Positions 2,875-26,751 of a stretch of 26,775 bases of DNA are shown one piece after another. The notes below the pieces were generated by a model. The model made no database searches. It was not told the DNA's origin and saw only the letters and a program-made list of their open reading frames with translations. Made by a program: the position numbers and the translations under genes. How positions within the stretch are numbered: position 1 is the stretch's first letter; the number at the start of each line of letters is the position of its first letter. The stretch is from Candidatus Schekmanbacteria bacterium (GTDB taxonomy: Bacteria; CSSED10-310; JACPHN01): positions 1 through 26,775 of the forward strand of contig JACPHN010000152.1 in assembly GCA_016188575.1 (NCBI GenBank), written 5' to 3'.

Positions 2875-4015
2875 GGCCTGTGGTCGACACCCATGTCAGC
2901 TCGCCAGTGGCCCCTACCAGGCCCACATTGGCGAAGCCGTCCGCCGCGGCCGCTCTGAGAAGAGGCGTTAGCATTTCGTCCTGGTTGTCGGCCACAATTC
3001 CCGTCAGCATGGCAAGTCCAGCAGCCGCCTCATGGAATTGTTGATCACTTTGTGCCGAGTGCGCGTCGATACGGTACCGCACTGCGACCAGCTCGGGAGT
3101 CACCTCATGCGCACTTCCGGGCTCCCCGAGATACAGTGTCAGGGAGAGATTCTCTTGGCGCGCCATATCGAGCAGCCACGTCAAGCGTCCAATCGTGAGC
3201 TCTCGGTTGCGGTCGACGCCATTCTGAATTGGCGCCATGTTTGCGAACACCAGTGCGCCAGACCCGGGCGAGGCGCTTTCAGGCTCTGTTACCATCAACT
3301 TCGCCATCCTGGCGGTCGAGCGCCAATGAATCCGCCTCAAGTCATCGCCCGGCTCGAATGCCCGCACCCGGGAAGCCGGTGCCCCAGCGATGGCGAAAGC
3401 GCCCGATCCACCCCCGCCGAGTATTTCATGGAAACGTTCGAGGAAGCTCATCCCGTCTGGCCACGGCACCCGCTCGGGATAGACAACGTGCTGTCGTGCG
3501 GGGAGATCCAACCGAAGTTTATATCGGACGAGACCAAACGGATAGGAGGATTCAACCTCAAAGGCTACAATTTTCCAAAGTCCCCTTCGATTGCGAACTG
3601 CTTCGTAGACAAATGATTGTCTACGATAAATGTGCAAGAAGAAGCTATTGAGGGATTTGTGATATATTGTGCTATGTTGTGGCGCAATTGCATGGAATAC
3701 GTCTTGGGGAGCGACGTGACAAGAAACTTCCCTGAGAGATATGTGAAGGAACTGAAGAAACCTTGACCTGATCCAGGCGTTTACCCGAATAACCACAGTA
3801 TCATTGACAAATACATCCGCAGGTTGTTGAATATCGCACTGAAAATTTCTAGTGGAATATATTGCCGTCAATAGGTTTACGGCAAGTATTGATATAGAAA
3901 AGCAAAATTGTATATAGAATAAGTTAAGGCCGGAGTTAATAGCGGCAACTGACAAAACCATACAGAAACCAAGCACAGCAGTTCCTGCATGCGTTAATGT
4001 GATACTTCTGAGCAT
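2867..4015 (-). CDS. DUF58 domain-containing protein (MoxR-associated)
   Basis: 382-aa protein with two N-terminal hydrophobic helices (~10-30 and 35-52), an extracytoplasmic-type beta-rich stretch, and the DUF58 hallmark at residues 218-240, including RAFEPGDDLRRIHWRSTAR. DUF58 proteins are vWA-like partners of MoxR ATPases, and the triplet MoxR-DUF58-transglutaminase is a recurrent operon. The start is 9 nt after the MoxR stop and the stop overlaps the transglutaminase start by 8 nt. No clear Shine-Dalgarno precedes the ATG. The 5' half (about 3600-4015) is strikingly AT-rich (about 33-45% GC in the lines I counted) in an otherwise GC-rich window, while the DUF58 core is normal. The AT-rich part also contains a perfect inverted repeat at 3603-3626. 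The reading frame is intact, so this is not an obvious insertion. Confidence 0.9.
   Translation of the reverse strand: MLRSITLTHAGTAVLGFCMVLSVAAINSGLNLFYIQFCFSISILAVNLLTAIYSTRNFQCDIQQPADVFVNDTVVIRVNAWIRSRFLQFLHISLREVSCHVAPQDVFHAIAPQHSTIYHKSLNSFFLHIYRRQSFVYEAVRNRRGLWKIVAFEVESSYPFGLVRYKLRLDLPARQHVVYPERVPWPDGMSFLERFHEILGGGGSGAFAIAGAPASRVRAFEPGDDLRRIHWRSTARMAKLMVTEPESASPGSGALVFANMAPIQNGVDRNRELTIGRLTWLLDMARQENLSLTLYLGEPGSAHEVTPELVAVRYRIDAHSAQSDQQFHEAAAGLAMLTGIVADNQDEMLTPLLRAAAADGFANVGLVGATGELTWVSTTGHA
3600..4015. other. AT-rich island within an intact gene
   Basis: Counting individual 60-base lines between 3600 and 3960 gives about 33-45% GC, against clearly more than 55% for most of the window. 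The island covers the N-terminal membrane part of the DUF58 protein. On the plus strand (antisense) it contains promoter-like pairs TTGACA (3804-3809) with TTGAAT (3827-3832), 17-bp spacer, and TTGATA (3889-3894) with TATATA (3911-3916), 16-bp spacer. Such matches are expected by chance in AT-rich DNA, so transcription is not claimed. Confidence 0.5.
3603..3626. repeat. Perfect 10-bp inverted repeat inside the DUF58 gene
   Basis: TCGTAGACAA (3603-3612) and TTGTCTACGA (3617-3626) are exact reverse complements separated by ATGA. The element is fully coding on the minus strand (residues RRQSFVYEA of the DUF58 protein). It lies at the boundary of the AT-rich 5' half of that gene. No T tract follows on either strand, so it does not look like a terminator; it could be an mRNA hairpin or an operator-like palindrome. 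Confidence 0.6.
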
Positions 4016-4024
4016 GATTAATAG

Positions 4025-5020
4025 TCAGATAGGCGGATTCACCGCAGACGCAATGACATGCAGAGCGTCCGATTCAGACATGCCCTTTCGCCGCGCTTCC
4101 AGCGACAAGGTAACGCGATGACCCACCAGCGAAATGAAGAGCTCGCGTACATCATCCGGTACGGAATAGTATCTTCCATGAAGCAAAGCTCGTGCCTGAG
4201 CGCCGCGAAAGAGAGCGAGAGAGGCCCTGGGGCTCGCGGGGATGGAGAAAAGCTGACTGGCTCTGGTTGCTCCTACGAGGCGGGTCGCGTAGCGCGCGAC
4301 AGAGGCGTCGACGAAAACGCTCCGGACCGCGCGCTGCAGCTTGGAAAAATCGTGGATCGAGCCCCAGGGGCTGAGGTCGTGCAGGGGGTGAGAGTTAGCT
4401 TGAGCGAACAAGATCTGCAGCTCGTCGTCCTCCGCCGGGTAGCCAAGGCTGATGCGGGAGAAGAAGCGATCAAGTTGAGCGACGGGGAGGCGAAATGTCC
4501 CTTCGAGCTCGGCCGGATTCTGCGTTGCAATAACGAGGTGCGGTGTGGGCAAAGGGCGCGTAGTTCCGTCCACCGTTACCTGGGACTCACTCATGCTCTC
4601 GAGCAGGCTCGATTGCGTCCTCGGCGAAGCGCGATTTATTTCGTCAGCGAGGACCACATTAGCGAACACGGGACCCTCCTGAAATCTGAACTGCTGCTCG
4701 CGCTGGTCGAATACGGAAACGCCGACAACATCCGATGGTAAGAGGTCGGGCGTAAACTGAATGCGTTTGAAGACTCCGCTGAGCAGTCTCGCGAGCGTGC
4801 GAGCAAGCATGGTTTTGCCAACGCCGGGCAGGTCTTCGATCAGGAGGTGTCCTTCACTGAGAAGTGTGATTACGGCAATTTCGATTTGTACGCTCTTGCC
4901 GACGATGACCGACTGTGCGGCCCGGCAAAACTCGGCGACGCGGGTAGAGCAGGCAATGAGATCGGCCTGTCGTGAGCGTGCGAGCGCATCCGAAGTGTGG
5001 GCCAGGGACGTGTTTGCCAA
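4025..5020 (-). CDS. MoxR family AAA+ ATPase
   Basis: AAA+ ATPase of the MoxR/RavA type, probably a chaperone acting on its DUF58 partner. Numbering from the upstream GTG at 5089: Walker A LPGVGKT (87-93), Walker B VVLADE (145-150), sensor 1 ATQNP (188-192), arginine-finger region LPVAQLDRFF (201-210), and a C-terminal lid domain ending ASAVNPPI. Two starts compete. GTG 5089 gives 354 aa but has only a weak ribosome site. TTG 5020 gives 331 aa, closer to the usual family length, and follows an excellent AAAGGAGGAGAA; I prefer it. The 23 extra residues of the longer form are Pro/Arg/Gly-rich and outside the domain. It is first in the four-gene operon; the DUF58 gene starts 9 nt after its stop. 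No minus-strand promoter is obvious. Confidence 0.92.
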   Translation of the reverse strand: MANTSLAHTSDALARSRQADLIACSTRVAEFCRAAQSVIVGKSVQIEIAVITLLSEGHLLIEDLPGVGKTMLARTLARLLSGVFKRIQFTPDLLPSDVVGVSVFDQREQQFRFQEGPVFANVVLADEINRASPRTQSSLLESMSESQVTVDGTTRPLPTPHLVIATQNPAELEGTFRLPVAQLDRFFSRISLGYPAEDDELQILFAQANSHPLHDLSPWGSIHDFSKLQRAVRSVFVDASVARYATRLVGATRASQLFSIPASPRASLALFRGAQARALLHGRYYSVPDDVRELFISLVGHRVTLSLEARRKGMSESDALHVIASAVNPPI

Positions 5021-5131
5021 TTCTCCTCCTTTGCCCCGCCGAAGGGGTCTCGGGGGCGGCGTTTCAATGGTCTCAGAGAAATCTAGCACCGTTCTCGGAC
5101 TCTTTGCTGCCCTGCAAAGCGGAGGCGGCGC

Positions 5132-13719: not shown

Positions 13720-14610
13720 ATGACACGTCGGATTCAACCTCGAGAGGGCCTGATCGTAGCCAATATCAGTCATCGGGGAAACGTGCGCCGAAACAATGAG
13801 GACTCGTATGGCTACTTCGAGCACCCGGACGAGGGGGAGTTCGCAGCGCGCGGTCGACTTGCAGTGGTTGCAGACGGCATGGGGGGCCAAGCGGCTGGAG
13901 AAGTGGCGAGCTGCATGGCAATCCGGTGTATTCGTACGGCCTACTACGGGGCGTTGTTTGGCGGGCAACGACCGGAAGCCGCGCTCGAGGAGGCCATTCA
14001 GCAGGCGAATGCGCTCATTGCCAAGGAAGCTGACCGGGACGAATCGAAGGCCGGGATGGGTACTACGGTTACGGCTGTCCTGGTCTGCGGCGAGCGCGCC
14101 TGGGTGGCGCACGTCGGTGATAGCCGCGCGTACCTGATGCGCCGGTGGGTGCTGCGGCAGGTCACGGAAGATCACTCACGCGTGTGGGAGCTCGTCAGAA
14201 GCGGGTTCATCGGCACTGATGCCGTCAAGACACATCCGTTCGCGTCTGCCATCTACCGTTCGCTTGGCGTGGCGCACGAAGTGGAAGTCGATGTCACCGG
14301 GCCAATAGCACTTGAGCCCAATGATCGCTTTCTGATCTGTAGCGATGGCCTGACGGATATGGTGAACGACGAGGCGATTGCGGAAGTCCTGGGCACGCAA
14401 GCGCCACCGTCCGCGTGCAAGACACTGGTCGAGCTGGCACGCGAACATGGCGGCAAAGACAACATCACCGTTCAGATCCTCGCGGTGCCTGCGGAGAACG
14501 GGAAGCTTGGCCCACGCCCCGAGACTGCCCAGGAGGGAAGCCGGCGGCGGCCCACGCAAGATACGGGGCTGCGCTCGCTGGTCAGACGCCTCGTGCGCGG
14601 CGCTCCTTGA
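13720..14610 (+). CDS. PP2C-family protein serine/threonine phosphatase
   Basis: 296-aa cytoplasmic metal-dependent phosphatase of the Stp1/PrpC type. Motifs in order: NISHRGNVRRNNEDSYG (N26, E27, D28), VVADGMGGQAAGE (Asp52), GMGTT (112-116), AHVGDSRAYL (Asp134), RSLGV, LICSDGLTDMV (Asp209) and GGKDNITVQ (Asp247). All metal-binding aspartates are present. The C-terminal ~35 residues are Arg/Pro-rich and outside the domain. Such enzymes reverse Hanks-type kinase phosphorylation; no kinase gene is in the window, although two FHA phosphothreonine-binding domains are encoded 7 kb away. The ribosome site before the ATG is weak. It follows the zinc-ribbon-like gene and converges on pyrD. Confidence 0.93.
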   Translation: MTRRIQPREGLIVANISHRGNVRRNNEDSYGYFEHPDEGEFAARGRLAVVADGMGGQAAGEVASCMAIRCIRTAYYGALFGGQRPEAALEEAIQQANALIAKEADRDESKAGMGTTVTAVLVCGERAWVAHVGDSRAYLMRRWVLRQVTEDHSRVWELVRSGFIGTDAVKTHPFASAIYRSLGVAHEVEVDVTGPIALEPNDRFLICSDGLTDMVNDEAIAEVLGTQAPPSACKTLVELAREHGGKDNITVQILAVPAENGKLGPRPETAQEGSRRRPTQDTGLRSLVRRLVRGAP

Positions 14611-14686: not shown

Positions 14687-15742
14687 TCAGTGGGGTCGTC
14701 GCTGCAGCCCCGCCGCAATCTCGCGGACGAGCCGCGGTCCTTCGTAGGTGAAGGCCGTATACACCTGTAGCAGGTCAGCTCCGGCCTGCAGCCGACGGCG
14801 AGCTTCGAAGGCGCCGTCGATACCGCCGGCGCCGATCAGGACGAGGCGATTGCCAGCCGCGCGGCGAAGGCCCGCGAGTGCCGACGTGGCGGCGGCAGCG
14901 AGGGGAGGGCCTGAGAGGCCACCTTGCTCTGCGGCGAGGGGCGCAGAGCTGACTGCCGGGCGGGCCACGGTCGTGTTTGTCGCGATGAAACCGGCCGCGC
15001 CTTCAGCGAGGGCCGCGTCGACGAGGCGCTCAAGGCCTGCCTCGGCGACATCGGGGGAGATCTTCACGAGCACGGCTGGGCGCCGAGCCCACCGGCCCTG
15101 AAGATCGGCGTCGGCGAGCGCCGCCAGGATGCTCCGAATGCCTGTTGGGCTTTCGAGGTCGCGCAGACCTGGGGTATTCGGCGAGCTCACGTTGACGCAT
15201 ACATAGGTGGCGTAGCCGGAAAGCTGTCGCGCGACTGCCAGGTAGTCTCGCCACGCTTGTTCGTTGGCGGTGTCGCGGTTTTTCCCGACATTCACTCCAA
15301 GGGGGATGCGGTCGAGCATGCCGGTGGCCGCAGCCGCTGCAAGCCGCGCCTCGACCGCATCTTTTCCCGCGCTCGGGAAGCCCATCCGATTGATGAGTGC
15401 GGCGTGTTCCGGAATGCGGAAGATGCGTGGGCGAGGGTTGCCGCCCTGCGGCCGAGGAGTCACCGTGCCAATTTCGGCGAAGCCGAAGCCAAGCGACGCC
15501 CAGGCAAGGACAGCCTCGGCATCCTTGTCGAGGCCAGCGGCGAGCCCGAGTCGGTTAGGAAAGTTGGCTCCCCACAATCTCGTGGGTTGTTCGCAAGGCG
15601 CTGCGGCGCCAGCGGCGCGACCGAGCAATCGCAGGCGATGAGTCAGAAACGGCCCAGGCCCCGCGGCGAGCTTCAGCGCGAGCATTGCGGTGCGATGCGC
15701 GCGTTCGGGATCGAGGCTCCCCAGTACTCCGAGGGGGCTCAT
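14687..15742 (-). CDS. pyrD: Dihydroorotate dehydrogenase (quinone), class 2
   Basis: 351-aa FMN enzyme of pyrimidine synthesis that oxidises dihydroorotate to orotate with quinone. The N-terminal ~50 residues (DPERAHRTAMLALKLA) form the membrane-associating extension that marks class 2. Then come NRLGLAAGLDKDAEAV (63-78), IGTVTPRPQGGNPRPR, NRMGFPSAG, NVSSPNTPGLR with the catalytic Ser187, LVKISPD, ATNTT, GGLSGPPL and LIGAGGIDGAFEA. The length is normal. The ATG shares ATGA with the stop of the upstream phosphoesterase gene, so the two are translationally coupled. It converges on the PP2C gene with a 76-bp gap. Confidence 0.95.
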   Translation of the reverse strand: MSPLGVLGSLDPERAHRTAMLALKLAAGPGPFLTHRLRLLGRAAGAAAPCEQPTRLWGANFPNRLGLAAGLDKDAEAVLAWASLGFGFAEIGTVTPRPQGGNPRPRIFRIPEHAALINRMGFPSAGKDAVEARLAAAAATGMLDRIPLGVNVGKNRDTANEQAWRDYLAVARQLSGYATYVCVNVSSPNTPGLRDLESPTGIRSILAALADADLQGRWARRPAVLVKISPDVAEAGLERLVDAALAEGAAGFIATNTTVARPAVSSAPLAAEQGGLSGPPLAAAATSALAGLRRAAGNRLVLIGAGGIDGAFEARRRLQAGADLLQVYTAFTYEGPRLVREIAAGLQRRPH

Positions 15743-16623
15743 GCGCTCTCGTCGTCCGCTGTAGGTGCTTGTTGAAGGGTTACTCGGCGAATACCGTGGA
15801 CGCCGCGGTCGTCGAGATCGTAGACGGCAAACCCCGCGACTCCGCTCATGGTTGACGATCCGCAGTTGGAAATGGTAACCGCGCGCCCGGGAACGGCACG
15901 GATGAACGGGTGGTGCTGATGGCCGTGCAGAATCAAGGAGACACCGTGGTCAGCGGCCACGGTGATCAGCTCGGCATGGTCGATTAACCCATGATGGGGC
16001 GCATCGATGGTGCCGTCGTGGCGGTAGGGGCCATGATGTAAGCACAGGACGATGGTTCTGCCGCGCAGAGCCGAGTGGCGCAAGGCTGCAGTCAGCGAGC
16101 GCAGTTGAGCTTCTCCGATCGCACCCCGCGCGACAAAAGGTAGACGCGATGGAATCGTCGAGTCCACGCCGATGAGGGCGACACCGTCGTCGAACAATCG
16201 AACCCACGGGAAAAGTGAGCCAGGCACCGCCACAGGAAGATCGCTGCCCAGAGCCTCCGCGAACGCGGCGGCGAAGCGGCGGTGGCGGACGGCGCCAAGG
16301 GTGTACATGTCGTGATTGCCCGGGATTGCGGACAGCGCACCTCGCGATCTCAGCAGATCACCGAAGATTTCGCGCACCGCGGCGAATTCTTGCTCGAACG
16401 CGAGTGCCGTGGCGTCGCCGGTGAACGTTACATGGTTGGCGCCCAGGTCCGCGGCTTGTCCCAGGATCTCACGGAGCGTCGCCGCCGCCAGGGCGAAGCG
16501 CGACTGGCGTCCCAACACCTTCAGATTGAAGAGCCCGGCCAGCCGCCGACCCCAAAAGCGGCGCGCAGGGATCGAATGATAGGGAACCTGCAAGTGGACG
16601 TCGCTGATATGGACAAGCTTCAT
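15739..16623 (-). CDS. Calcineurin-like metallophosphoesterase
   Basis: 294-aa binuclear-metal phosphoesterase. Motifs in order: HISDVHL (Asp8, His10), TFTGDATALAFEQEF (Asp70), IPGNHDMYT (Asn103, His104), CLHHGPY (His196/His197) and LHGHQHHPF (His235, His237). This is the CpdA/Icc-like group; possible substrates include cyclic nucleotides, nucleotides or lipid-linked diphosphates, and the sequence does not decide. It has no signal peptide. The ATG at 16623 begins exactly at the conserved MKLVHISDVH; the open frame continues upstream to 18051, but that part is antisense to the amidase gene and Arg/Ala/Pro-rich, so it is not coding. The stop overlaps the pyrD start by 4 nt. An AT-rich stretch near 16698-16712 is a possible promoter. 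Confidence 0.9.
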   Translation of the reverse strand: MKLVHISDVHLQVPYHSIPARRFWGRRLAGLFNLKVLGRQSRFALAAATLREILGQAADLGANHVTFTGDATALAFEQEFAAVREIFGDLLRSRGALSAIPGNHDMYTLGAVRHRRFAAAFAEALGSDLPVAVPGSLFPWVRLFDDGVALIGVDSTIPSRLPFVARGAIGEAQLRSLTAALRHSALRGRTIVLCLHHGPYRHDGTIDAPHHGLIDHAELITVAADHGVSLILHGHQHHPFIRAVPGRAVTISNCGSSTMSGVAGFAVYDLDDRGVHGIRRVTLQQAPTADDESA

Positions 16624-17130
16624 GGCCGATGGGTAATCAGAGGTGGCTGAGCTTTCTCTCTCGCGCGCTGCGGCGCGCTTCGCGCGGTAACCGCGGTAAT
16701 TGATTATTCCACGAAGGCTCGGGTGATGCCAGCTTGCGCCGCGCCGCGCGCACCTATCGTAGAGTGCTGAACCTACCGCCTGTGAGCCGGCAAGCTGCGC
16801 GGCAAGCGCATCATGAAGACTCCCCACCTCACTTCCGCCCGCAAGCGCGGGGAGGGACGGAGAGGGGCGCCGTGACGTCGACGTCGAACCGGCGGTGGGT
16901 GCAGTGAGCCGGCGGGCCTTGACCTCGCTGCTCCACCAGCGTATGAACCGAGACCGGTGCGCAATCGGCGCGTGCGGTCGGCGACGGGCTGCGGGCCCGG
17001 GGCGCGGCTGTCGGTGAGCTTCGGCAACGCCGCGTGTGCGGCGCCCGCGGGTTCGGGAGCGGCACCTGCGGCGATCCAAGGTGGCAAGCCGGCAAGGTAG
17101 GAGTGCTTCCGAGAAAGAAGAGGGAGAGAG
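16624..17130. other. Divergent intergenic region, no gene seen
   Basis: This 507-bp stretch between the phosphoesterase and amidase starts is the longest non-coding gap in the window. It has a GC-rich palindromic patch (about 16665-16690), a short AT-rich patch with GGTAATTGATTATTCC (16697-16712) that could hold the leftward promoter, and a degenerate inverted-repeat element (16821-16867). Short frames exist on both strands, but none has a ribosome site and recognisable protein. Confidence 0.6.
16821..16867. repeat. Degenerate hairpin element, possibly a decayed dispersed repeat
   Basis: The stretch CCCACCTCACTTCCGCCCGC - AAGC - GCGGGGAGGGACGGAGAGGGG can fold back imperfectly (12 of 21 positions pair by Watson-Crick). 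It resembles the widespread intergenic hairpins with CCCTC...CCGCAAGCGG...GAGGG seen in many GC-rich Proteobacteria. Only one copy is visible in the window. Confidence 0.3.
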
Positions 17131-18828
17131 TTGAGCGTCTACAATCTGCAGTCGGTGAGCCTGCCGCGGCTGACTGGGCGACCCTTGGCGGCGCTGGCGG
17201 CGACTCTGGGCAACGGTTGGACACGCCCCCTGCTCATGGGCAAGCTGCTGCGGCAGGGCGGGCTGGACGGCCTCAGAAGCAAGGTTTTCGAGGAAGCCCC
17301 CGCATATTGGCCGGAGCTGTCTCCGATTGGGGACGAAGATCCTGCGGCTGCTGCCGAGGGGGCCTCCATGACCGCACAACGCGGGTTGGGTGATGGCGAG
17401 GGCGATGGTGATGACAGTGCGATTTCCATTGGCCGAATCGCCGCCGCCTTCAGGCGCGGTGAGGCGACGCCACTCGCCGTCGCCGAGCGAGTGCTGGACG
17501 CGGTAGCTGTGAGCGAACGCGGCGACTCGCCGCTGCGCGCATTCGTCGCCCAGGACCGCGGCGATGTGTTGGCGCAGGCGCGCGCGGCAACTGCTCGCCA
17601 TGCCTCCGGGACGCCCCTTTCGGTGCTCGACGGCGTGCCCATCGCGGTCAAGGACGAGCTCGACCAGGTGCCGTATCACACCAAAGCGGGAACGGCGTTT
17701 CTCGGGGCGCGGCCGGCGGTGACGGATGCGACCGTGGTGCAGCGATTGCGCGCCGCAGGCGCCGTGTTGATCGGCAAGGCGAACATGGCGGAGATTGGCA
17801 TCAATCCTACGGGGTTTAACCCGCACCACGGGATCGCCAGGAATCCGTGGAACCTGGGGCACGATCCCGGCGGGAGCTCTAGTGGCTCGGCGGTTGCGGT
17901 CGCGGCCGGTCTTTGCCCCGCGGCGATTGGCGCCGATGGCGGCGGCTCGATTCGGATTCCGGCGTCCTTGTGTGGCATCGTCGGCCTCAAAGCCACCTTC
18001 GGGCGCATTCCGGAGCATGGCGTCGCGCCGCTGTGCTGGAGCGTCGGTCACGTGGGGCCGCTGGCTTGTTGCGCGGCGGACGCTGCCATTCTCTACGGCG
18101 TCATCGCCGGTCCGGATGGCGGCGATCCCAACAGTCTCCGCCAGCCACGGCCAACGCTAGAGGGCATTGACAAGGCCGACCTGGCTGGGCTCCGCCTTGG
18201 TGTTTATTCGGCATGGTTTGACCACTGTGACCCGGAGGTTGCCGCGGTGTGTCACGGGCAAGTGGCTCAGTTGCAGGACCTGGGCGCGCTGGTGGTGGAA
18301 GTGGAGATCGCCGAGCTTGAGGAGATGCGGATTGCCCACGCGATTTCCATCCTGTCCGAGATGGCGGCCAGTCTCGGTCAATTTCGAGAGCACTGGGACA
18401 CGTTCGCCCCGGCGACGCGGATCAATCTCGAGATTGGGGCCGCCTTCGGCGCTGCGGATTTCGTTCACGCTCAGCGCATGCGGCGCCGGGCGGTGGAGAT
18501 TTTTCGGTCTGTATTCGAGCAGGTGGACGCGATCGTGTCACCGGCGACCGCGGTCCCATCGCCGCCGATCCCGCCGGGGGGCGCGGCCTGCGGCTGGTCC
18601 GATCTTGCCACCGTGACGGAGCTGATGCGGTATTGCTTCGCCGGAAACTTGACGGGGCTGCCGGCGATCAGCTTTCCGGCGGGCTTCTCCGCGGGCGGGC
18701 TGCCGATCGGCATGCAGGCCATGGGCCGGCCGTGGGAGGAGCATCTGCTGCTCCGCATCGCGCGGGCGGCGGAGAAGACATCGGAGCGCCGTCGACCACC
18801 GGTGTGCTTCGACCTGCTGGCCAGATAG
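17131..18828 (+). CDS. Amidase signature family hydrolase
   Basis: 565-aa protein of the amidase signature family. The catalytic triad is Lys174 in PIAVKDEL, cis-Ser249 in DPGGSSSGSAVAV and nucleophile Ser273 in ADGGGSIRIPAS; the 75- and 24-residue spacings equal those of mammalian FAAH. Before the domain there is a ~95-residue N-terminal extension (RPLAALAATLGNGWTRPLLM, then acidic/Gly-rich 85-97), hydrophobic in part but without a clear signal peptide. It hydrolyses a C-N amide bond; possibilities are fatty amides, aryl amides or nitrile-derived amides. The glutamine-dependent tRNA amidotransferase GatA is less likely because no gatB or gatC is adjacent and the extension is unusual. The TTG start is supported by AGGGAG (17121-17126). 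It is probably monocistronic. Confidence 0.9.
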   Translation: MSVYNLQSVSLPRLTGRPLAALAATLGNGWTRPLLMGKLLRQGGLDGLRSKVFEEAPAYWPELSPIGDEDPAAAAEGASMTAQRGLGDGEGDGDDSAISIGRIAAAFRRGEATPLAVAERVLDAVAVSERGDSPLRAFVAQDRGDVLAQARAATARHASGTPLSVLDGVPIAVKDELDQVPYHTKAGTAFLGARPAVTDATVVQRLRAAGAVLIGKANMAEIGINPTGFNPHHGIARNPWNLGHDPGGSSSGSAVAVAAGLCPAAIGADGGGSIRIPASLCGIVGLKATFGRIPEHGVAPLCWSVGHVGPLACCAADAAILYGVIAGPDGGDPNSLRQPRPTLEGIDKADLAGLRLGVYSAWFDHCDPEVAAVCHGQVAQLQDLGALVVEVEIAELEEMRIAHAISILSEMAASLGQFREHWDTFAPATRINLEIGAAFGAADFVHAQRMRRRAVEIFRSVFEQVDAIVSPATAVPSPPIPPGGAACGWSDLATVTELMRYCFAGNLTGLPAISFPAGFSAGGLPIGMQAMGRPWEEHLLLRIARAAEKTSERRRPPVCFDLLAR

Positions 18829-18975: not shown

Positions 18976-20394
18976 TCAGCTCGCCCGCATCCATTTCCAG
19001 AGCTCCCAGGGCGACGGAGGTTTGCCGTACATCAGCACGCCGATGCGAAACACGCGGGCTGCAACCCATACCATCGCGACGCTGGCGGCATACCCTTCGA
19101 CCAGGCTCAGCGCAATCTGCCAGAGGGCGACCGGTTCGGTCGACGTGATGCGCACAATCATGACAAATGGGGTCATCAGCGGCACGAAGCTCGTGACGGT
19201 GGCAAGTACGCCGTTTGGGGACTCGCTGATCGGCAGCCACAGTAACAGGGGAACCATCAGCACCAGCGCCGCAGGCAACATCAAGGCCTGCGCCTCACGC
19301 AGCTCGTTGACGGCGCTGCCGACCGCTGCCATGATTGCCGCGATCATGAAGTACGCCATGATGTAGTACAGGCCCACATAAATCAGGTCAGTCCAGTTGA
19401 TGAGATCCACGAAGGCGAAGGCGACGAGTGCGGCGATGCCGGCGGCGATGTAGACGCTCAGCATCACCAGACCAACAAAGGCTTGACCGATGATTTTCCC
19501 TGCCATGAGCTGAAGTGGGCTGACGGCGCTCAACAAGACCTCCATGACCTTGTTCGATTTTTCTTCGATCGTAAGCGTCAGCAGGTAGTTCCCGCTCATG
19601 AACGATCCCATCCAGACAAGCATCATGAAGATCATTGGCACGACGATTCTGAAGACCTTGACATCGCGGTCCTCGGTTACCTGCTTACCCTCGTCGTTGA
19701 TTCTTACGGTCTTCACGAGCGGAGCCCGTGAGAGCTCGCGGACGCGCTCGACGGAGAGGCCGGCGGCCTCGATGTGGATGCGGGACAGGGCAGTCGCCAG
19801 GGTGTCCTCGATTACCGAGGAGTGGCGAATATTCGTCTGCGCTTGCACATATAGCGTTAGCTCTTCTTGCCGCTGGTCGCCGGCCGGCGCGGCTGCGCTT
19901 GTGGCCGGGACCTCCGCCGGTGGTACGTAGACGGCGACCGCGACCAGCGAGCCTTCGCCGAGACTCGCCTGCAGTCGCGGCAGCGCTTCCAGGCCCGCTT
20001 CGCCAACGACCTCGATGGCCACGTCGGTGACGAGCCCAGCGGTGATGAGCGCCTCCGGGGAGCTTTCCCCCGCGGCGGGGTTCGGCGCCGTGGGCCCGAG
20101 AGTCTGGTTGCCTGGAAGCTTGGTAACCTGCGTCCGGCGGATGAGCTCGTCGCGGAGCCGCCCGAGGAGGCGATCGCGCTGAAACTCGACGCGCGCGGCC
20201 GTGAGCAGGCGGCCGGTGGGATCGACGATAGCCAACTGGCCCTTCAGAGGTGCGATCTTCGAGGCGAAGAGTCGGGGGCCGTAGATGGCCATGGCACCCA
20301 TGAGCACCGGGGCTGCGACTGCCGAGAGGATGAAGGCCTTGGTCAGGGCCGTGGACTTGAACTCCCTCCAGGCCACGATAGCGATCTTATGCAT
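18976..20394 (-). CDS. ABC-2 type transporter permease (NatB-like)
   Basis: 472-aa membrane protein. One helix at ~20-40 is followed by a ~205-residue soluble loop (45-248) that should lie outside the cytoplasm, then about six helices (248-268, 300-330, 337-362, 370-390, 398-415, 427-447). Between the first two of this set is TIEEKSNKVMEVLLSAVSPL (275-294), the cytoplasmic coupling motif diagnostic of the NatB/ABC-2 exporter group. NatAB exporters move sodium ions or small organic substrates outward, but most homologues have unknown cargo. The ATG overlaps the ATPase stop by 8 nt (ATGCATAA). It is the last gene of the FHA-transglycosylase/ABC operon. Confidence 0.9.
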   Translation of the reverse strand: MHKIAIVAWREFKSTALTKAFILSAVAAPVLMGAMAIYGPRLFASKIAPLKGQLAIVDPTGRLLTAARVEFQRDRLLGRLRDELIRRTQVTKLPGNQTLGPTAPNPAAGESSPEALITAGLVTDVAIEVVGEAGLEALPRLQASLGEGSLVAVAVYVPPAEVPATSAAAPAGDQRQEELTLYVQAQTNIRHSSVIEDTLATALSRIHIEAAGLSVERVRELSRAPLVKTVRINDEGKQVTEDRDVKVFRIVVPMIFMMLVWMGSFMSGNYLLTLTIEEKSNKVMEVLLSAVSPLQLMAGKIIGQAFVGLVMLSVYIAAGIAALVAFAFVDLINWTDLIYVGLYYIMAYFMIAAIMAAVGSAVNELREAQALMLPAALVLMVPLLLWLPISESPNGVLATVTSFVPLMTPFVMIVRITSTEPVALWQIALSLVEGYAASVAMVWVAARVFRIGVLMYGKPPSPWELWKWMRAS

Positions 20395-21340
20395 CAGTCA
20401 GCTCCCGTCGCATCCGCACCACGTCTTCAGCGGCCAGGTCGGCGCGCACGAGGCGGACGAAGACTTCCTCGAGGGTGATGCGGCGCAGTCGCAAGCTCCT
20501 GACGTCACACCGCTCGATGACCTGTTTCATGATTGACCGGGGCTCGGCGCCATCCTTGAGGAAAAGCTCCAGGCTGCGGCCATTGGAGACGGAGTCAATG
20601 CCAGGGATGTCGAGCAGCGAGGATGCCGCATCGTCGGCATTGAGCGGTTCGACCTCGATCGTGCGGGGGTCGAACTGCGCGCGGATATCGGCGATCGTGG
20701 CATCCAGGAGCTTGATGCCGTTATTGATGAGGAAGCAACGGTCACAAAGCTGTTCCGCCTGGTGGAGAATGTGGGTGGAGAAGATGATTGTCTTTCCGCG
20801 CTGGTGAAGCTCCTCGATCAGCCGGCTCACCAGAGACGTGTTGACGGGATCCAGGCCCGAGAACGGCTCGTCGAGAATAAGCAGATCGGGATCGTGAATG
20901 ATCGCGGCGAGGAACTGGATTTTTTGCTGCATCCCCTTGGACAGCTCCTGGCACCGTTGGCGATACGTCAGTGGCAGCTCGAGTCGGTCCAACCACTGCT
21001 TGATGTCATGCGCAAGGCCGCGCCGGGTTACCCCTTTGAGGGCCGCGACGTATTCCAGGAACTCGCCGACTCGCATTCGCCGGTAGAGGCCGCGTTCTTC
21101 CGGGAGATATCCGATGCGATCCTTGTTGTCCAGAGCGCTGCCGCCGAGCACTTCGACAGTGCCGCTGTCCGGCAGCAGGATCGACATGATGATGCGGATC
21201 GCAGTGGTTTTACCGGCGCCGTTTGGGCCGAGAAAACCGCACAGGCTTCCTGCGGGCACCTCAAGCTCGAGGTCTTGCACCGCCTTGTTCGCCCCGAACG
21301 ACTTGCACACAGCCCGGAGTTTCAGAGGAGGCAGGTTCAC
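20387..21340 (-). CDS. ABC transporter ATP-binding protein (NatA-like)
   Basis: 317-aa ABC ATPase: Walker A GPNGAGKTT (38-46), Q-loop region IGYLPEERGLYRRM (76-89), signature LSKGMQQK (133-140, an ABC-2 exporter variant of LSGGQ), Walker B LLILDEP (153-159), D-loop SGLDP (161-165) and switch His190 in FSTHIL. A ~95-residue C-terminal domain ending LRRITLEEVFVRL is the DUF4162-type extension of NatA-like proteins. It pairs with the permease encoded 8 nt into its 3' end. The start is GTG, sharing GTGA with the stop of the FHA-transglycosylase gene. This tight overlap argues that the three products are made together. Confidence 0.93.
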   Translation of the reverse strand: MNLPPLKLRAVCKSFGANKAVQDLELEVPAGSLCGFLGPNGAGKTTAIRIIMSILLPDSGTVEVLGGSALDNKDRIGYLPEERGLYRRMRVGEFLEYVAALKGVTRRGLAHDIKQWLDRLELPLTYRQRCQELSKGMQQKIQFLAAIIHDPDLLILDEPFSGLDPVNTSLVSRLIEELHQRGKTIIFSTHILHQAEQLCDRCFLINNGIKLLDATIADIRAQFDPRTIEVEPLNADDAASSLLDIPGIDSVSNGRSLELFLKDGAEPRSIMKQVIERCDVRSLRLRRITLEEVFVRLVRADLAAEDVVRMRRELTDA

Positions 21341-23640
21341 GATGTGGCACCTTCGGTGATGGTGGGTTCAGTGGCGGCCTCGTCTGTGGGAACGGTTGCC
21401 GCGGCGTGGGCGGGAACGCCGATGCGCTGGAGCTCCTGGGCGACTGTCTCGGCAGTTCCCGAAGGCACGTGCAGGCCAAACGGTTTGCCTGCGGGCGTGG
21501 TGAGAGCTTTTTCCGGGATCGCGGGATTGAGTCGTTGCAGCTCCCCGACCGAGGTCACGGCGAGCTCGGCGAGCATGCGCAAGCTCACCGGCCGCTCGAC
21601 AATCACGGTCTCGTATGCGGGCGCGGTGCTCATCGTTTCCAGCGGGTCTTCGCCGGAGATGCCGAAGGCGTCCGGCGCCGCCGAGATGATAGCGATGGCC
21701 ATAATGCGCGGAACGTATTCGGTGGTCTCGGTCGCGAGCAGGCGCTGCTCGACGAGTCGCCAGAAGCTTCTGGTGCCCAGCGGGTCATCGAGCTGTTTGA
21801 GTGCCCAGCGGACCTTGCCGTCGCCCGCGTTGTATGCCGCCATGGCCAGAAAGAAGGATCCGGATCCGAAGATCGAGAGATGGTCGAGAAAGATCTCGCG
21901 TGCGGCCTCCGTGGACTTGAGCGGGTCGGTGCGCTCGTCGACGGCCTTGGTCACGCGCAAGCCGTAGTCCTTTGCCGTTCCCGGCATCAGTTGCCACAGA
22001 CCGACGGCGCCAGCCTTGGACCGTGCCTGGGGGTAGAAGTTGCTTTCGACGAAGGCGACGTAGATGAGGTTTTCGGGCAGCTTTCGGCGGGCCAGGACTT
22101 GCTTGAGCAACGCGTTGTACTTCCTGCCACGCTGCAATCCGCGCACGTATTGCTCGCGCATGCCGCCGGCCGAGTACTCGTCGACGAACCGCTCCACGGA
22201 GCTTGTGAACCCGGCCTGGTTTGCCGGCGCGCGTTCGCCGAACCCTTCGGATAGCCGCGTGATCTCGTCGCGAATGCGCGCGCGTCGCGCTTCAGGCGAA
22301 AGTGGACCGAGGGGTTGGCGTGGCGGCGCCTTGCTGCCTGCGACGACCGGTTCGTTGCTCGGAGACCGCCCGCCGAGCCGCGCTTCCTGAAGGCGCGCGA
22401 GCTGTTCGGGTGGCATTTTCGCTACCTGCTCCTGGAGAGTGGCGTAGAGTCCGGCGAGGTCAAGGCCCGCGTCCTCCGGAGGCAGGCCGAGGCGGAGGAT
22501 TTGCCAACCTTTCAGGCGCGACGGGAGGTTTGCGAGGTCGAGGCAGTCGAGGGCGGCCTGCATGTTCTCGAATGCCACCACCGTCTCGCTGGATCGGCTT
22601 GCGAGCAGCGCGGCGCTGACGTGCTGGTGGGCGGCATCGAGGAGCTCCGCGGTCTGGTAGGTCGAGAGGCGATCGCGCGCGCGCTGAAACCGCTCCTGCT
22701 GGCGAGAAAGGTAGAGGTAGCCCGCAAGCAACCCCAGCGCCACGACCGCCGCCGTGAGGCCCAGCGGGAGAAGCCACGACAATGGCCCGGCGCGCCGGCG
22801 GGATGCGGGGAGCAAGCTGTCCGGCGACGCCCCCGGCGGGAGGACGCGATAGACGAATGGGTAGGCGTCGAAAGAGACGGTCTCCCCGGGCTGCAGGAGG
22901 TGCTGGGTGACGCGGCGGCCGTTCACGAAGGTGCCGTTGGTGCTGCCGAGATCCTCGAGGAGCAGCCCGGTGGGCGCGCGCATCAGGCGGGCATGCTGCT
23001 TGGAGATGCTGGCCTCCGGCAGGACGATCTGCGCGTCCTGCTCTCGTCCGACAATGGATACGGTGCCGGCGAGCTCGATGGCGCGCAGCCCGCTTCCGGG
23101 TATCGATCCGACCAGAAAGTGCCGGTTTGCGTCGGCGAGGGAGCGGACGACGGTTCCCTGACCTTTCAGCATCCAGGCGTCGGGAGCGGATGGGGAAGGC
23201 GGCGCGGGTGCGGCGGTCGGCGTGGGGCGGGGTGGGACAGGAGTGGAGTCGGGGGCGACCTGCACCGCGGGGGCGCGGCGGGCGGTACGCAGCTCGTCAG
23301 TCGGAGAGACGGGCAGCGCCAGCGCCTCGCCGCCGCTCACGAAGCGAAGCGTTGTGCGGGGGCCAAGCTGCACGCGGCTTCCCGACGGTAGGGGCGCGGC
23401 GTCCGCCAGTCTGCGGCCGTTCAGTATGGTCCCATTGGTGCTGCTCTCGTCCCGGATCATGGCCTGGCCATGATGCAAGTAGAGCGTGGCGTGGTGCCGG
23501 GAGACCGAGGAGTCGGCAATCTGGACCGTGCAGGAGGCTGACTTGCCGATGCTGACCTGCTCGGTGTCGCGGAGCGTGACGTCGAAGGCGCGGCCGGCAG
23601 CCGGTCCGCCCTCGACCACGAGTCGACCTTCCAGGATCAT
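21337..23640 (-). CDS. FHA-FHA-transmembrane-lytic transglycosylase (MltD-like) fusion protein
   Basis: 767-aa protein with an unusual order of domains. FHA 1 (~5-101) has IGKSASC, SSVSRHHATL (Ser47, His50) and ESSTNGTILNG. FHA 2 (~176-268) has IVGREQDAQ, SISKQHARL (Ser213, His216) and GSTNGTFVNG. A Pro-rich linker joins them. A single membrane helix lies at ~288-311, preceded by SRRRAG, which fits an N-in topology. The ~205-residue stretch after it is helical and Pro-rich. The SLT domain (~515-650) is MltD-type: YVAFVESNFYPQARS with catalytic Glu532, GAVGLWQLMPGTAKDYGL and AMAAYNAGDGKVRWAL. A LysM-like MltD tail follows at 681-740. FHA domains bind phosphothreonine, so a cytoplasmic reader is joined to a periplasmic peptidoglycan-cutting enzyme. 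AGGA lies 7 nt before the ATG. The stop overlaps the ABC ATPase start. Confidence 0.92.
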   Translation of the reverse strand: MILEGRLVVEGGPAAGRAFDVTLRDTEQVSIGKSASCTVQIADSSVSRHHATLYLHHGQAMIRDESSTNGTILNGRRLADAAPLPSGSRVQLGPRTTLRFVSGGEALALPVSPTDELRTARRAPAVQVAPDSTPVPPRPTPTAAPAPPSPSAPDAWMLKGQGTVVRSLADANRHFLVGSIPGSGLRAIELAGTVSIVGREQDAQIVLPEASISKQHARLMRAPTGLLLEDLGSTNGTFVNGRRVTQHLLQPGETVSFDAYPFVYRVLPPGASPDSLLPASRRRAGPLSWLLPLGLTAAVVALGLLAGYLYLSRQQERFQRARDRLSTYQTAELLDAAHQHVSAALLASRSSETVVAFENMQAALDCLDLANLPSRLKGWQILRLGLPPEDAGLDLAGLYATLQEQVAKMPPEQLARLQEARLGGRSPSNEPVVAGSKAPPRQPLGPLSPEARRARIRDEITRLSEGFGERAPANQAGFTSSVERFVDEYSAGGMREQYVRGLQRGRKYNALLKQVLARRKLPENLIYVAFVESNFYPQARSKAGAVGLWQLMPGTAKDYGLRVTKAVDERTDPLKSTEAAREIFLDHLSIFGSGSFFLAMAAYNAGDGKVRWALKQLDDPLGTRSFWRLVEQRLLATETTEYVPRIMAIAIISAAPDAFGISGEDPLETMSTAPAYETVIVERPVSLRMLAELAVTSVGELQRLNPAIPEKALTTPAGKPFGLHVPSGTAETVAQELQRIGVPAHAAATVPTDEAATEPTITEGATS

Positions 23641-23726
23641 GCGGCCTTCCTCGCGCTGGCGCGAGCCGCTGCAGCGCCCTCCGCATTCCGCCGCGGGAGT
23701 GGCAGCCGCGGCGCCGTGTCCGACAA
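23637..23726 (-). CDS. Possible 29-aa leader peptide before the FHA-transglycosylase gene
   Basis: A short frame starts at TTG 23726 with GGAGG 7 nt upstream (an ATG at 23732 is only 1 nt from the same GGAGG) and ends in a TGA that overlaps the ATG of the FHA gene (ATGA). The peptide begins SDTAPRLPLPRR and ends in an Ala/Arg-rich tail. The ribosome site and overlap suggest translational coupling, but a frame this short in GC-rich DNA may be chance. Confidence 0.25.
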   Translation of the reverse strand: MSDTAPRLPLPRRNAEGAAAARASARKAA

Positions 23727-23826: not shown

Positions 23827-26751
23827 TCATCGCCGGAACCTCAGGTCAAAGGTCGGGAGCCTGGTTGTGTGGCGTGGCGGTGCGGCACCGGTCGAGGCGC
23901 GCGGGTGGCGAGCTGCCACGAGGGCGATGCCGATGACGGCCGCGAGCAGCAAAGACGATCCTGATGGGACGGCGGGCGCGCCGTCTTGAATTGTGACGGT
24001 TACAGCGCTTGGGTCAACTTGAACCGCGTCCTGCGGGTCGGTAAACGTTACGGCAAAGGTCTCGGCGGCCTCGGCTTCCGCGCCGCTCAGGAGGCTGACC
24101 GAGATTGTCTGGGAGGCGCCGTCGGGGCTGCCAGTGGCGAAGACGAGAGTACCGCTGGTCGCGGTGAAGTCCTGCCCGGCGCTGGCGGTGCCGTCCGCGG
24201 TGGCGTAGTCGACCCGGATCTCCGCGGCGGAGGGCGCCCCATCCCAGGTGCGCAGCCGCACGGGGATGTCGAAACCGCTCATGCTCTCCCAGACGGTGCG
24301 CGCGGCTTTCGTCGGGCCGACCATCGCCGCGGCGAGCGCCGTCGTTGCCGACGCGGAGTCGTTGTCGTCTCGCGGGTCGGCCTGGTCAGCGGCGGCCGCC
24401 GCGGTGAGGGTGACGGATCCGGGGGCGGCGGGCGCGGTCAGCTCCAGCGCCACAGTGGCGGTGCCGCCCGCGGCGATGCCGTCGAGCGCGCATGCCAGCG
24501 GCGCCGTGCCGCTGCATTCGCCCTGGCTCGGCGTCGCGGTGACGAGAACGGCGCCTTCCGGCAGGGTGGCGGTGAGCGTGACGCCGGTGGCCGCGAGCTC
24601 ACCGAGGTTGCGGGCGGTGAGGGTGTAGCGCAGCGGGCCGCCGGCGAGCACCGGGTCGGCGTCTTCCGCGATGGCCGCGGCGACGTCCGCGCCGGGCGCG
24701 AGCACCACGAGAAAGCCATCGTATTCGCCCTGCAGAGTCGTTTGCAAACCGCCCGCTATCGGGAAGTCGGCGGACGCGGTGGCCCCCCCGACCACCGTTC
24801 GCCCATCCGCGGTCACGGCGACCGCCTTTGCGCCGTCCTCCAGCACTCCGCCGAGAAACGTCGAGAATCCGAGCGTGCCGTCGGGGCCGAAACGCGCGGC
24901 GAAGGCGTCCCATCCGCCGGCGTGGTCCGCAATCGTCCCCAACACCGGTAGCCCGTCGCCGTTGGTGCGCCCGGCGATGTGAATGTTGCCCGCCACGTCG
25001 ACCGCGATGTCCCGGACCTCGTCGTCCCGCGATCCGCCAAAGTAGGTCGAGAAGCGCAACGCCGTGCCCGCGGCGTTGAGAACGGCGACGAATACATCAT
25101 CGTAGTCGCCTGGAGTCGGCTGGAAGGCGTTCACGACCGGGAAGTCGGTGGAACCAGTGTCGCCGGTCATGGCGAAGTTGCCGCTGGAGTCCACAGCGAC
25201 GGCCAGGCATTCATCTCTCCCAATGCCGCCGAGGAACGTGGCGTACAGGATCGCCGATCCCGCCGTGTCGAGTACCGCCAGGAGCGCCTGCGTGTTTCCC
25301 TTCATGCCTGAGTCGAACGCATCGTCGGTGAGCGGAAAGTCGGCAGAACCGGAAATGCCGCAGGCGATGAGCCGGCCGGCGCCGTCAAGCGCGATGCCGC
25401 CGAAGTCATCGCTACTGCTGCCGCCGAGATAGGTGGCGTAGGCGAGGCCGCCGTCGGGCAAGACCTTCACGAGGAAGCCGTCAGACGTACCTCCCAGGGT
25501 CGTGTCAAGCGCGTTTACGACGGGGAAGTCCAGCGAGTCCGTGCCACCGCCGGCGTACAGGTTTCCGGCACCGTCCGCGGCGACGTCGGACACTATATCA
25601 CCGCCGGAACCGCCGAGATAGCTCGCGTAGACCAGCTCTGAACCCGACGGCGAGATGGAGGCGACAAAGCCGGTGAAGACGAGCTCGGCGCTGGCCTTCT
25701 CCGGCTGGAAGGCGTTCATGACAGGAAAGTCGCTCGATAGCGTGCTCCCCGCCAGGAAAATACCTCCGGCCGGTCCCAGCGCCATGACATTGGGAGACTC
25801 CCAGTCGCTACCGCCAAGAACCGTCGAATAGAGGAGCTGCCGCCCGTCGGGAGACAGCTTGCTGACAAAGGCATCCGACTGCCAGGGTCCGCCTGAATAC
25901 AGGGGGTCGGTTACTGGGAACCCATCGCCAGCGGTGCTGCCGCTGACGTAGATGTTGCCGTCGCCATCGATCTTCACGTCGTCGATCACGTCACCGAGGC
26001 CGCCGCCCCAGTAGGTCGCGTATTCGAGCACCGGGTCGATGACCAGCGGCAAGCCGGGCTCGACCGCGGCGGAATCCAGGTCGAAGCCGACCCGCCAGGC
26101 TCGCGTCCCGCCAGGAGCGGGGCTGATGCGGTAGGTACAGGGGATGAAACGCCGTCCGTGGGCGTCGTCTTGATAGGCTACGGGCCGGCGGAGGCGCAGC
26201 TCTCCGGCTGGAACGGTCAGTACCAGGTCGCCGTCCGCCGCGATCGCCGCGCTGGCGGCGCCTTCCACGTCGAGAGCCGCGGCCCCCGGGTCGGCTCCCG
26301 GCCGGACGGTGACGTCGAGCTCCACGGCGCCCTGTCGTCCATAGTAGGTGAGGTCGACGCCCGGGTACACCTCGCGCGCTTCGACGCGAGCGAAATGGGG
26401 CACATCCCGGCGCCAGCGCGAGGGGTCGCGGCCGACCAGATAATGGCTGCGACCGGGCAACGGGTTTGCCCCGGCGAGCGCGGCGTCAGGGCGGGCCCCG
26501 GCGAACCGGAGGTGAATCGCCGCGCCGCCGCGCGGAGTGACGATCGCTTCCGCCGGCGTGATGGTGACGCGGTAGCCGCGGGCGCGGGCGACGAAGGCTT
26601 TCTCGCCGCTGCCCAAGGTGCGCGGCTCGAAGCACAGCGGCAAGCCCGCGAGCAGGCTCGGGGCGCTGGAGGCGGGAAGCGCGCCGGTCCCCCAGGCCGT
26701 CAACAACAGGGCGAAAAGCGACGCGACCAGGCGAACGTGCAGCGACTTCAT
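23827..26751 (-). CDS. Secreted SBBP-repeat beta-propeller protein with DUF11-like and Calx-beta domains
   Basis: 974-aa protein. A signal peptide (1-~30) and a ~200-residue N-terminal domain of the kind that precedes SBBP repeats (DUF7948-like; HYLVGRDPSRWRRDVPHF, YPGVDLTYYG) lead into seven ~60-residue SBBP repeats (243-685), each opening YATYxGG or a variant (YATYWGG, YSTVLGG, YASYLGG, YATYLGG, YATFLGG, FSTYFGG, FSTFLGG) and carrying a DFPV-like element. Seven repeats suit a closed seven-bladed propeller. Then come a DUF11/CARDB-like beta sandwich (~688-805; ADPRDDNDSA), a Calx-beta domain (~815-925; VDYATADGTASAGQDFTATS) and a C-terminal hydrophobic helix (931-947) followed by a basic tail, possibly a sorting or anchoring signal. 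Surface or secreted role likely, perhaps binding. AAAGGAG sits 8 nt before the ATG. Confidence 0.9.
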   Translation of the reverse strand: MKSLHVRLVASLFALLLTAWGTGALPASSAPSLLAGLPLCFEPRTLGSGEKAFVARARGYRVTITPAEAIVTPRGGAAIHLRFAGARPDAALAGANPLPGRSHYLVGRDPSRWRRDVPHFARVEAREVYPGVDLTYYGRQGAVELDVTVRPGADPGAAALDVEGAASAAIAADGDLVLTVPAGELRLRRPVAYQDDAHGRRFIPCTYRISPAPGGTRAWRVGFDLDSAAVEPGLPLVIDPVLEYATYWGGGLGDVIDDVKIDGDGNIYVSGSTAGDGFPVTDPLYSGGPWQSDAFVSKLSPDGRQLLYSTVLGGSDWESPNVMALGPAGGIFLAGSTLSSDFPVMNAFQPEKASAELVFTGFVASISPSGSELVYASYLGGSGGDIVSDVAADGAGNLYAGGGTDSLDFPVVNALDTTLGGTSDGFLVKVLPDGGLAYATYLGGSSSDDFGGIALDGAGRLIACGISGSADFPLTDDAFDSGMKGNTQALLAVLDTAGSAILYATFLGGIGRDECLAVAVDSSGNFAMTGDTGSTDFPVVNAFQPTPGDYDDVFVAVLNAAGTALRFSTYFGGSRDDEVRDIAVDVAGNIHIAGRTNGDGLPVLGTIADHAGGWDAFAARFGPDGTLGFSTFLGGVLEDGAKAVAVTADGRTVVGGATASADFPIAGGLQTTLQGEYDGFLVVLAPGADVAAAIAEDADPVLAGGPLRYTLTARNLGELAATGVTLTATLPEGAVLVTATPSQGECSGTAPLACALDGIAAGGTATVALELTAPAAPGSVTLTAAAAADQADPRDDNDSASATTALAAAMVGPTKAARTVWESMSGFDIPVRLRTWDGAPSAAEIRVDYATADGTASAGQDFTATSGTLVFATGSPDGASQTISVSLLSGAEAEAAETFAVTFTDPQDAVQVDPSAVTVTIQDGAPAVPSGSSLLLAAVIGIALVAARHPRASTGAAPPRHTTRLPTFDLRFRR

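Follow-up and report, generated by a model that had tools for sequence, protein, structure and literature searches.

A predicted membrane-anchored MltD-type lytic transglycosylase fused to two FHA domains in Candidatus Schekmanbacteria, with relatives in a second phylum

Cells must confine their wall-cutting enzymes in place and time, and several described systems share parts of the solution considered here. This work concerns a gene of Candidatus Schekmanbacteria located on contig JACPHN010000152.1, of which the entire 26.8-kb sequence (26,775 nucleotides) is hereafter called the window, and which belongs to an assembly of 275 contigs. Its product displays, in this order, an FHA domain, a Pro-rich linker, a second FHA domain, one transmembrane (TM) helix, a helical spacer and an MltD-type lytic transglycosylase, a layout abbreviated FHA-FHA-TM-SLT. 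Among known enzymes, MltD of Pseudomonas aeruginosa (structure 8rhe) and of Escherichia coli resembles the window protein in catalytic domain, fold, catalytic glutamate, motifs and the module that follows, whereas the window protein has a presumably cytoplasmic FHA pair and an inner-membrane helix instead of a lipobox signal peptide, and no LysM match. Rv1747 of Mycobacterium tuberculosis also carries two N-terminal FHA domains on an envelope-tied membrane protein, the first of which (FHA I, with Arg33) binds phosphorylated Rv2623 (PMC5549992), and the positions of G32, S47, H50 and N69 coincide in both proteins; however, Rv1747 bears a transporter on the same chain, while the window protein bears a transglycosylase, has a separate ABC exporter gene and shows Lys33 for Arg33. 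In Enterococcus faecalis, the kinase IreK phosphorylates MltG, another membrane lytic transglycosylase under Ser/Thr kinase control via its cytoplasmic part (PMC12369325), and to this extent the principle of such control is not new; nevertheless, MltG belongs to a different transglycosylase family and is itself the kinase substrate, and the abstract of that report describes no FHA readers on it. Assembly of the type VI secretion system (T6SS) is governed by a threonine phosphorylation pathway made up of the kinase PpkA, the phosphatase PppA and Fha, and it also needs a transglycosylase, MltE, which TssM brings to the membrane complex (PMC10433429). Finally, FHA also occurs in GltG and other FHA-TM proteins, which are membrane components of envelope machines but carry no transglycosylase in their outer part. 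What appears to be new in the window protein is the FHA reader fused to a lytic transglycosylase; in agreement with the initial annotation, which knew of no characterised protein of this layout, the fusion was undescribed in the literature covered on FHA with lytic transglycosylases and on contractile injection systems with both, most subscription papers lying outside that coverage.

The presence of two FHA domains and one SLT domain on a single chain, proposed in that annotation from the DNA letters, was confirmed by Pfam, AlphaFold and structural alignment, and its open reading frame (ORF) was found exactly as delimited there, on the minus strand (Table 1). The Pfam FHA model (PF00498) matched two stretches with 129 bits against a gathering cut-off of 20.7, and the tandem was predicted with confidence (block means of ~90-96 for FHA1 and ~80-94 for FHA2). 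Structural counterparts were GarA (7rj3, Z 18.4) for FHA1, and EmbR (2fez, Z 17.1) and FhaA (3po8, Z 16.8) for FHA2 (residues 164-268), which also matched the FHA of Rv1747 in sequence (E 5e-11). The phosphate-binding set of FHA2 is complete (G198, R199, S213, H216 and N235), and its Gly, Arg, Ser and His are invariant across the 8 FHA tandems aligned. With regard to the enzymatic part, Pfam SLT matched residues 519-616 (87.8 bits, cut-off 21.3), the AlphaFold model of residues ~450-745 was mostly above 90, and residues 461-738 superposed on P. aeruginosa MltD (8rhe) over 255 residues (Z 22.3, root-mean-square deviation 4.3). Since the lytic transglycosylase motifs ESNF, GLWQ, AYNAG and YVPRI are all present together with Glu532, itself invariant in 28 aligned sequences, the claim of a complete MltD core holds. 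The score against the NCBIfam MltD equivalog (124.5 bits) lies far below its cut-off of 508, hence the enzyme is termed MltD-type and not an MltD equivalog; no Pfam or NCBIfam match to the YceG/MltG family was obtained. From about residue 329 onwards, the window protein can be aligned to the mature portion of MltD lipoproteins of the same phylum (L009-L011), which have a signal peptide with lipobox and LysM, both lacking a match in the window protein. Because of this homology, the protein is best described as an MltD whose lipoprotein signal was swapped for FHA-FHA-TM and whose LysM tail is gone.

We consider it moderately probable that this protein works as a lytic transglycosylase anchored in the inner membrane, with Ser/Thr phosphorylation determining where it acts; binding, cutting activity, control, partner and topology are what we infer here. 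Cytoplasmic FHA2, with its canonical site, would dock on a phosphothreonine of a partner, which could be a kinase, a scaffold or a phosphorylated linker, with FHA1 providing a weaker or auxiliary contact through its Lys33-bearing site. The helix would tether the enzyme, and the spacer would let the MltD domain reach into the peptidoglycan, so that Glu532 could cut glycan strands there. Docking by FHA2 would bring the tethered enzyme to the site at which a machine has to pass the wall; in the window genome, that machine may be the co-translated ABC-2 exporter. Recruitment and clustering seem likelier than a conformational signal passing through one helix, which is possible, given that the linker from the FHA module to the helix is short and of low confidence. 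If true, the single chain would couple Ser/Thr kinase signalling directly to a wall hydrolase, in a manner open to testing.

Several observations weigh against this proposal, the first of them concerning topology. Exactly one hydrophobic segment was found (residues 287-311), as expected from the single helix initially annotated between the FHA pair and SLT. The positive flank that was reported ahead of the helix does exist (3 basic residues) but is not one-sided, as 5 basic and 2 acidic residues follow, and a positive-inside analysis was undecided for the window protein, being clearer for two of its relatives (L081 and L096). As flanking charge cannot decide, topology was argued from homology: the part after the helix is homologous to the mature, secreted MltD and was therefore placed outside, which supports the initially suggested arrangement, with cytoplasmic FHA domains and an external transglycosylase being inferred from these homologues. 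Additional points of the same sign are the low confidence of AlphaFold in the helical spacer, the absence of a kinase gene adjoining the fusion in the window, and the substitution in FHA1. Here the claim of two intact FHA sites stood only partly, since FHA2 is canonical and FHA1 keeps G32, S47, H50 and N69, but the arginine of its IGR motif is Lys33. Arg occupies this position in most domains aligned here, with Lys found also in the closest FHA1 paralogue (L002); from the residues involved, the change is conservative and phosphothreonine binding may persist.

The same FHA region also matches Yop-YscD_cpl, the cytoplasmic domain of SctD/YscD, with 96.7 bits. This domain has an FHA fold with a structural role, independent of phosphothreonine. 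It is conceivable, though in our view unlikely, that the FHA pair likewise acts independently of phosphorylation, as a structural module of the SctD or GltG kind through which the protein assembles or forms oligomers and which holds the transglycosylase fixed in an envelope complex beyond phosphorylation control. The match to the GltG model, below cut-off, and Lys33, shared with the L002 paralogue, would fit this alternative, as would the precedent of GltG, a membrane-embedded, FHA-carrying component of an envelope machine (PMC3169522). Nonetheless, the FHA match outscores the SctD match (129 vs 96.7 bits), the phosphate-binding Gly, Arg, Ser and His of FHA2 are kept in 8/8 aligned tandems, and kinase and PP2C genes are linked to the fusion in two relatives described below. 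The T6SS Fha/TagH model scored 60.4 bits on the window protein, below its cut-off of 120.25. Similar pairs recur in the same genome: L002 (1492-3258, plus strand) encodes one that is 43% identical to that of the window, fused to DUF898 (YjgN-like) membrane domains, and L004 and L007 encode FHA-FHA, one helix and an outer part without recognisable enzyme, which indicates repeated use of the FHA-FHA module within this genome. Secreted-looking DUF7948 proteins adjoin both 43%-identical modules (window 23827-26751, minus strand; L093:2215-7923, minus strand); they are 33% identical over ~620 residues, and the window one has an SBBP propeller, DUF11 and Calx-beta. NHL-propeller FHA proteins are likewise neighbours of the fusions in the second phylum.

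Relatives do exist, as the initial annotation had allowed, and the layout is not unique: FHA-FHA-TM-SLT was identified in 5 of 437 genomes searched, namely the window genome and four of a second phylum. As only the fetched transglycosylase ORFs were tested for FHA, by means of a profile hidden Markov model (HMM) built from these domains, five genomes constitute a lower bound. The genome sets comprised the window's own phylum (8 genomes), a large FHA-rich phylum (~60-100), a set from across the domain (~100) and the second phylum (98). No full-length relatives were detected in the first two sets, and a scan of named genomes returned distant MltD-like proteins only. Ranking by E-value reveals the transglycosylase part alone, and the FHA-profile scan of the ORFs was needed to expose the second family; in it, L081, from the cross-domain set, was the sole match besides the window protein. 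Within the phylum of L081, the layout was also present in L096 (77% identity with L081 along almost the full length), L097 (37%) and L098. Other long MltD ORFs (L045/L092, L065 and L089-L091) were checked as fusions and rejected, as neither reading nor the HMM gave an FHA match.

The surroundings of these relatives bear on the kinase/phosphatase system that had been proposed as the controller. In the L097 and L098 loci (larger regions L102/L100, G276; L104/L101, G241), contractile-injection genes lie directly upstream of a cluster of fusion, kinase and PP2C genes. The upstream order is sheath, tube, LysM tube protein, baseplate spike, Baseplate_J, Tail_P2_I and an unassigned 534-aa protein, where the sheath and tube genes are known from L102 only (L104 lies at the very start of its contig) and PAAR-like and gp25-like genes come from L104. 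Next follow an NHL propeller/vWA-TM-FHA protein, the FHA-FHA-TM-SLT protein, a Ser/Thr kinase with PEGA domains, an FHA protein and PP2C; in both loci, the FHA-SLT and kinase genes share a 4-bp overlap. Each of the two kinases carries 4-5 [KR]T-x-[IV] motifs in the linker ahead of its own helix, which are candidate phosphosites judging by sequence. L081 and L096 retain the propeller-FHA neighbour, and their vicinity yielded neither a kinase nor an injection gene; likewise, none of the neighbourhoods of unfused siblings (L107-L111) matched the contractile-injection or PP2C queries, with a weak kinase match in L111 only. The partner machine in the second phylum is probably a contractile injection system in two of the four cases. 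By analogy, these loci (L100-L104) resemble a T6SS-type phosphorylation pathway, as they encode a kinase, PP2C, an FHA protein, a transglycosylase and a contractile machine; they differ in having the FHA reader and the transglycosylase as one polypeptide. The window shows no such machine: over the entire contig, homology to L100/L102 was restricted to the FHA-SLT protein itself and PP2C, the rest of the genome not having been searched for a contractile injection system. The kinase/phosphatase setting is therefore evident beside the fusion in L097 and L098, but in the window no kinase is adjacent; its PP2C gene (13720-14610, plus strand) lies 7 kb from the fusion, and the product is 34-38% identical to those of the injection loci. 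In the host genome (9.2 Mb), which belongs to a phylum sparsely sampled at 8 genomes, Pkinase gave 188 matches and FHA dozens; with these kinases and the PP2C, candidate phosphorylation partners are plentiful.

Generalising from these loci, we tentatively propose, as an idea that we hold to be doubtful at present, that FHA-FHA-TM-SLT proteins form a separately evolved class in which kinase and PP2C would mark threonines, FHA would dock and the transglycosylase would open the wall for a large envelope machine (an injection system in the second phylum, an ABC exporter here), with a T6SS-like reader and drill merged. In the relatives, the neighbouring genes for a kinase, a phosphatase and an injection system hint at a way in which machines of this kind may cross peptidoglycan under kinase control, and the compact operons of L100 and L101 offer a defined kinase-reader-enzyme-phosphatase set for reconstitution.

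In the window, the fusion gene is the first of a trio with ABC-type ATPase and ABC-2 permease genes, joined by start/stop overlaps into one translationally coupled unit. This coupling, together with Rv1747, the M. tuberculosis ABC exporter whose two FHA domains include one (FHA I) bound in a phosphorylation-dependent manner (PMC5549992), lends some appeal to the notion that the protein mainly serves its exporter, opening peptidoglycan there for cargo or an exporter-linked complex while FHA only localises it. Although compatible with phosphorylation-directed placement, this notion seems to us rather improbable, as the ABC pair closest to it within the phylum (L035) has no transglycosylase beside it and the trio was present in no second genome, so that the ABC linkage may be recent or incidental. 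An assembly artefact or pseudogene, in which error or decay had fused two unrelated genes, could be imagined for a 275-contig assembly with no close relative in the genome set, but is hardly credible given a single uninterrupted frame in mid-contig whose GC at codon positions is coding-like along its entire length, intact catalytic and FHA2 residues, and recurrence of the layout in four other genomes.

A tree and the spacer make it likely, short of proof, that the fusions formed separately in the two phyla. The tree, built from 51 catalytic domains, placed the window protein with the unfused L030, L065 and L009-L011 (support 93/93) and gathered the four other fusions in a group of their own (88/87). 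Two label changes were required on this tree, and the approximately unbiased (AU) test did not reject a single fusion clade (p 0.21). The spacer is recognisable in the unfused L009 and L065 and not in L097; being common to unfused MltDs but not to L097, it favours separate fusion.

Table 1. Features of the FHA-FHA-TM-SLT gene and of the genes coupled to it (window positions).
Feature	Position	Strand	Basis and remarks
FHA-FHA-TM-SLT protein	21337..23640	-	767 aa; ORF and translation, Pfam, AlphaFold
Shine-Dalgarno-like AGGAAGG	23645..23651	-	4 nt ahead of ATG; sequence
FHA1, residues 2-105	23326..23637	-	Pfam, AlphaFold, structural alignment; Lys33 in place of usual phosphate-binding Arg
Pro/Ala-rich linker, 106-170	23131..23325	-	Predicted local distance difference test (pLDDT) mostly low
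FHA2, residues 171-268	22837..23130	-	Pfam, AlphaFold, structural alignment; canonical R199, S213, H216, N235
Single TM helix, 287-311	22708..22782	-	Hydropathy
Helical spacer, 312-447	22300..22707	-	Homologous to MltD-lipoprotein region between signal peptide and catalytic domain
MltD-type lytic transglycosylase domain, 448-662	21655..22299	-	Pfam, AlphaFold, structural alignment
Catalytic Glu532 codon	22045..22047	-	Motif and alignment
MltD module after catalytic domain, 663-746	21403..21654	-	Alignment, AlphaFold; no Pfam LysM match
ABC transporter ATPase, DrrA type	20387..21340	-	GTG start overlaps FHA-SLT stop
ABC-2 permease	18976..20394	-	Start overlaps end of ATPase gene

Elsewhere in the window, a 770-aa metallophosphoesterase (15739-18051, minus strand) shows a weak, partial match to the anti-phage DS9_1 model (53.7 of 420 bits), and positions 667-5089 (minus strand) hold a row of transglutaminase TgpA-like, DUF58 and MoxR-type AAA genes.

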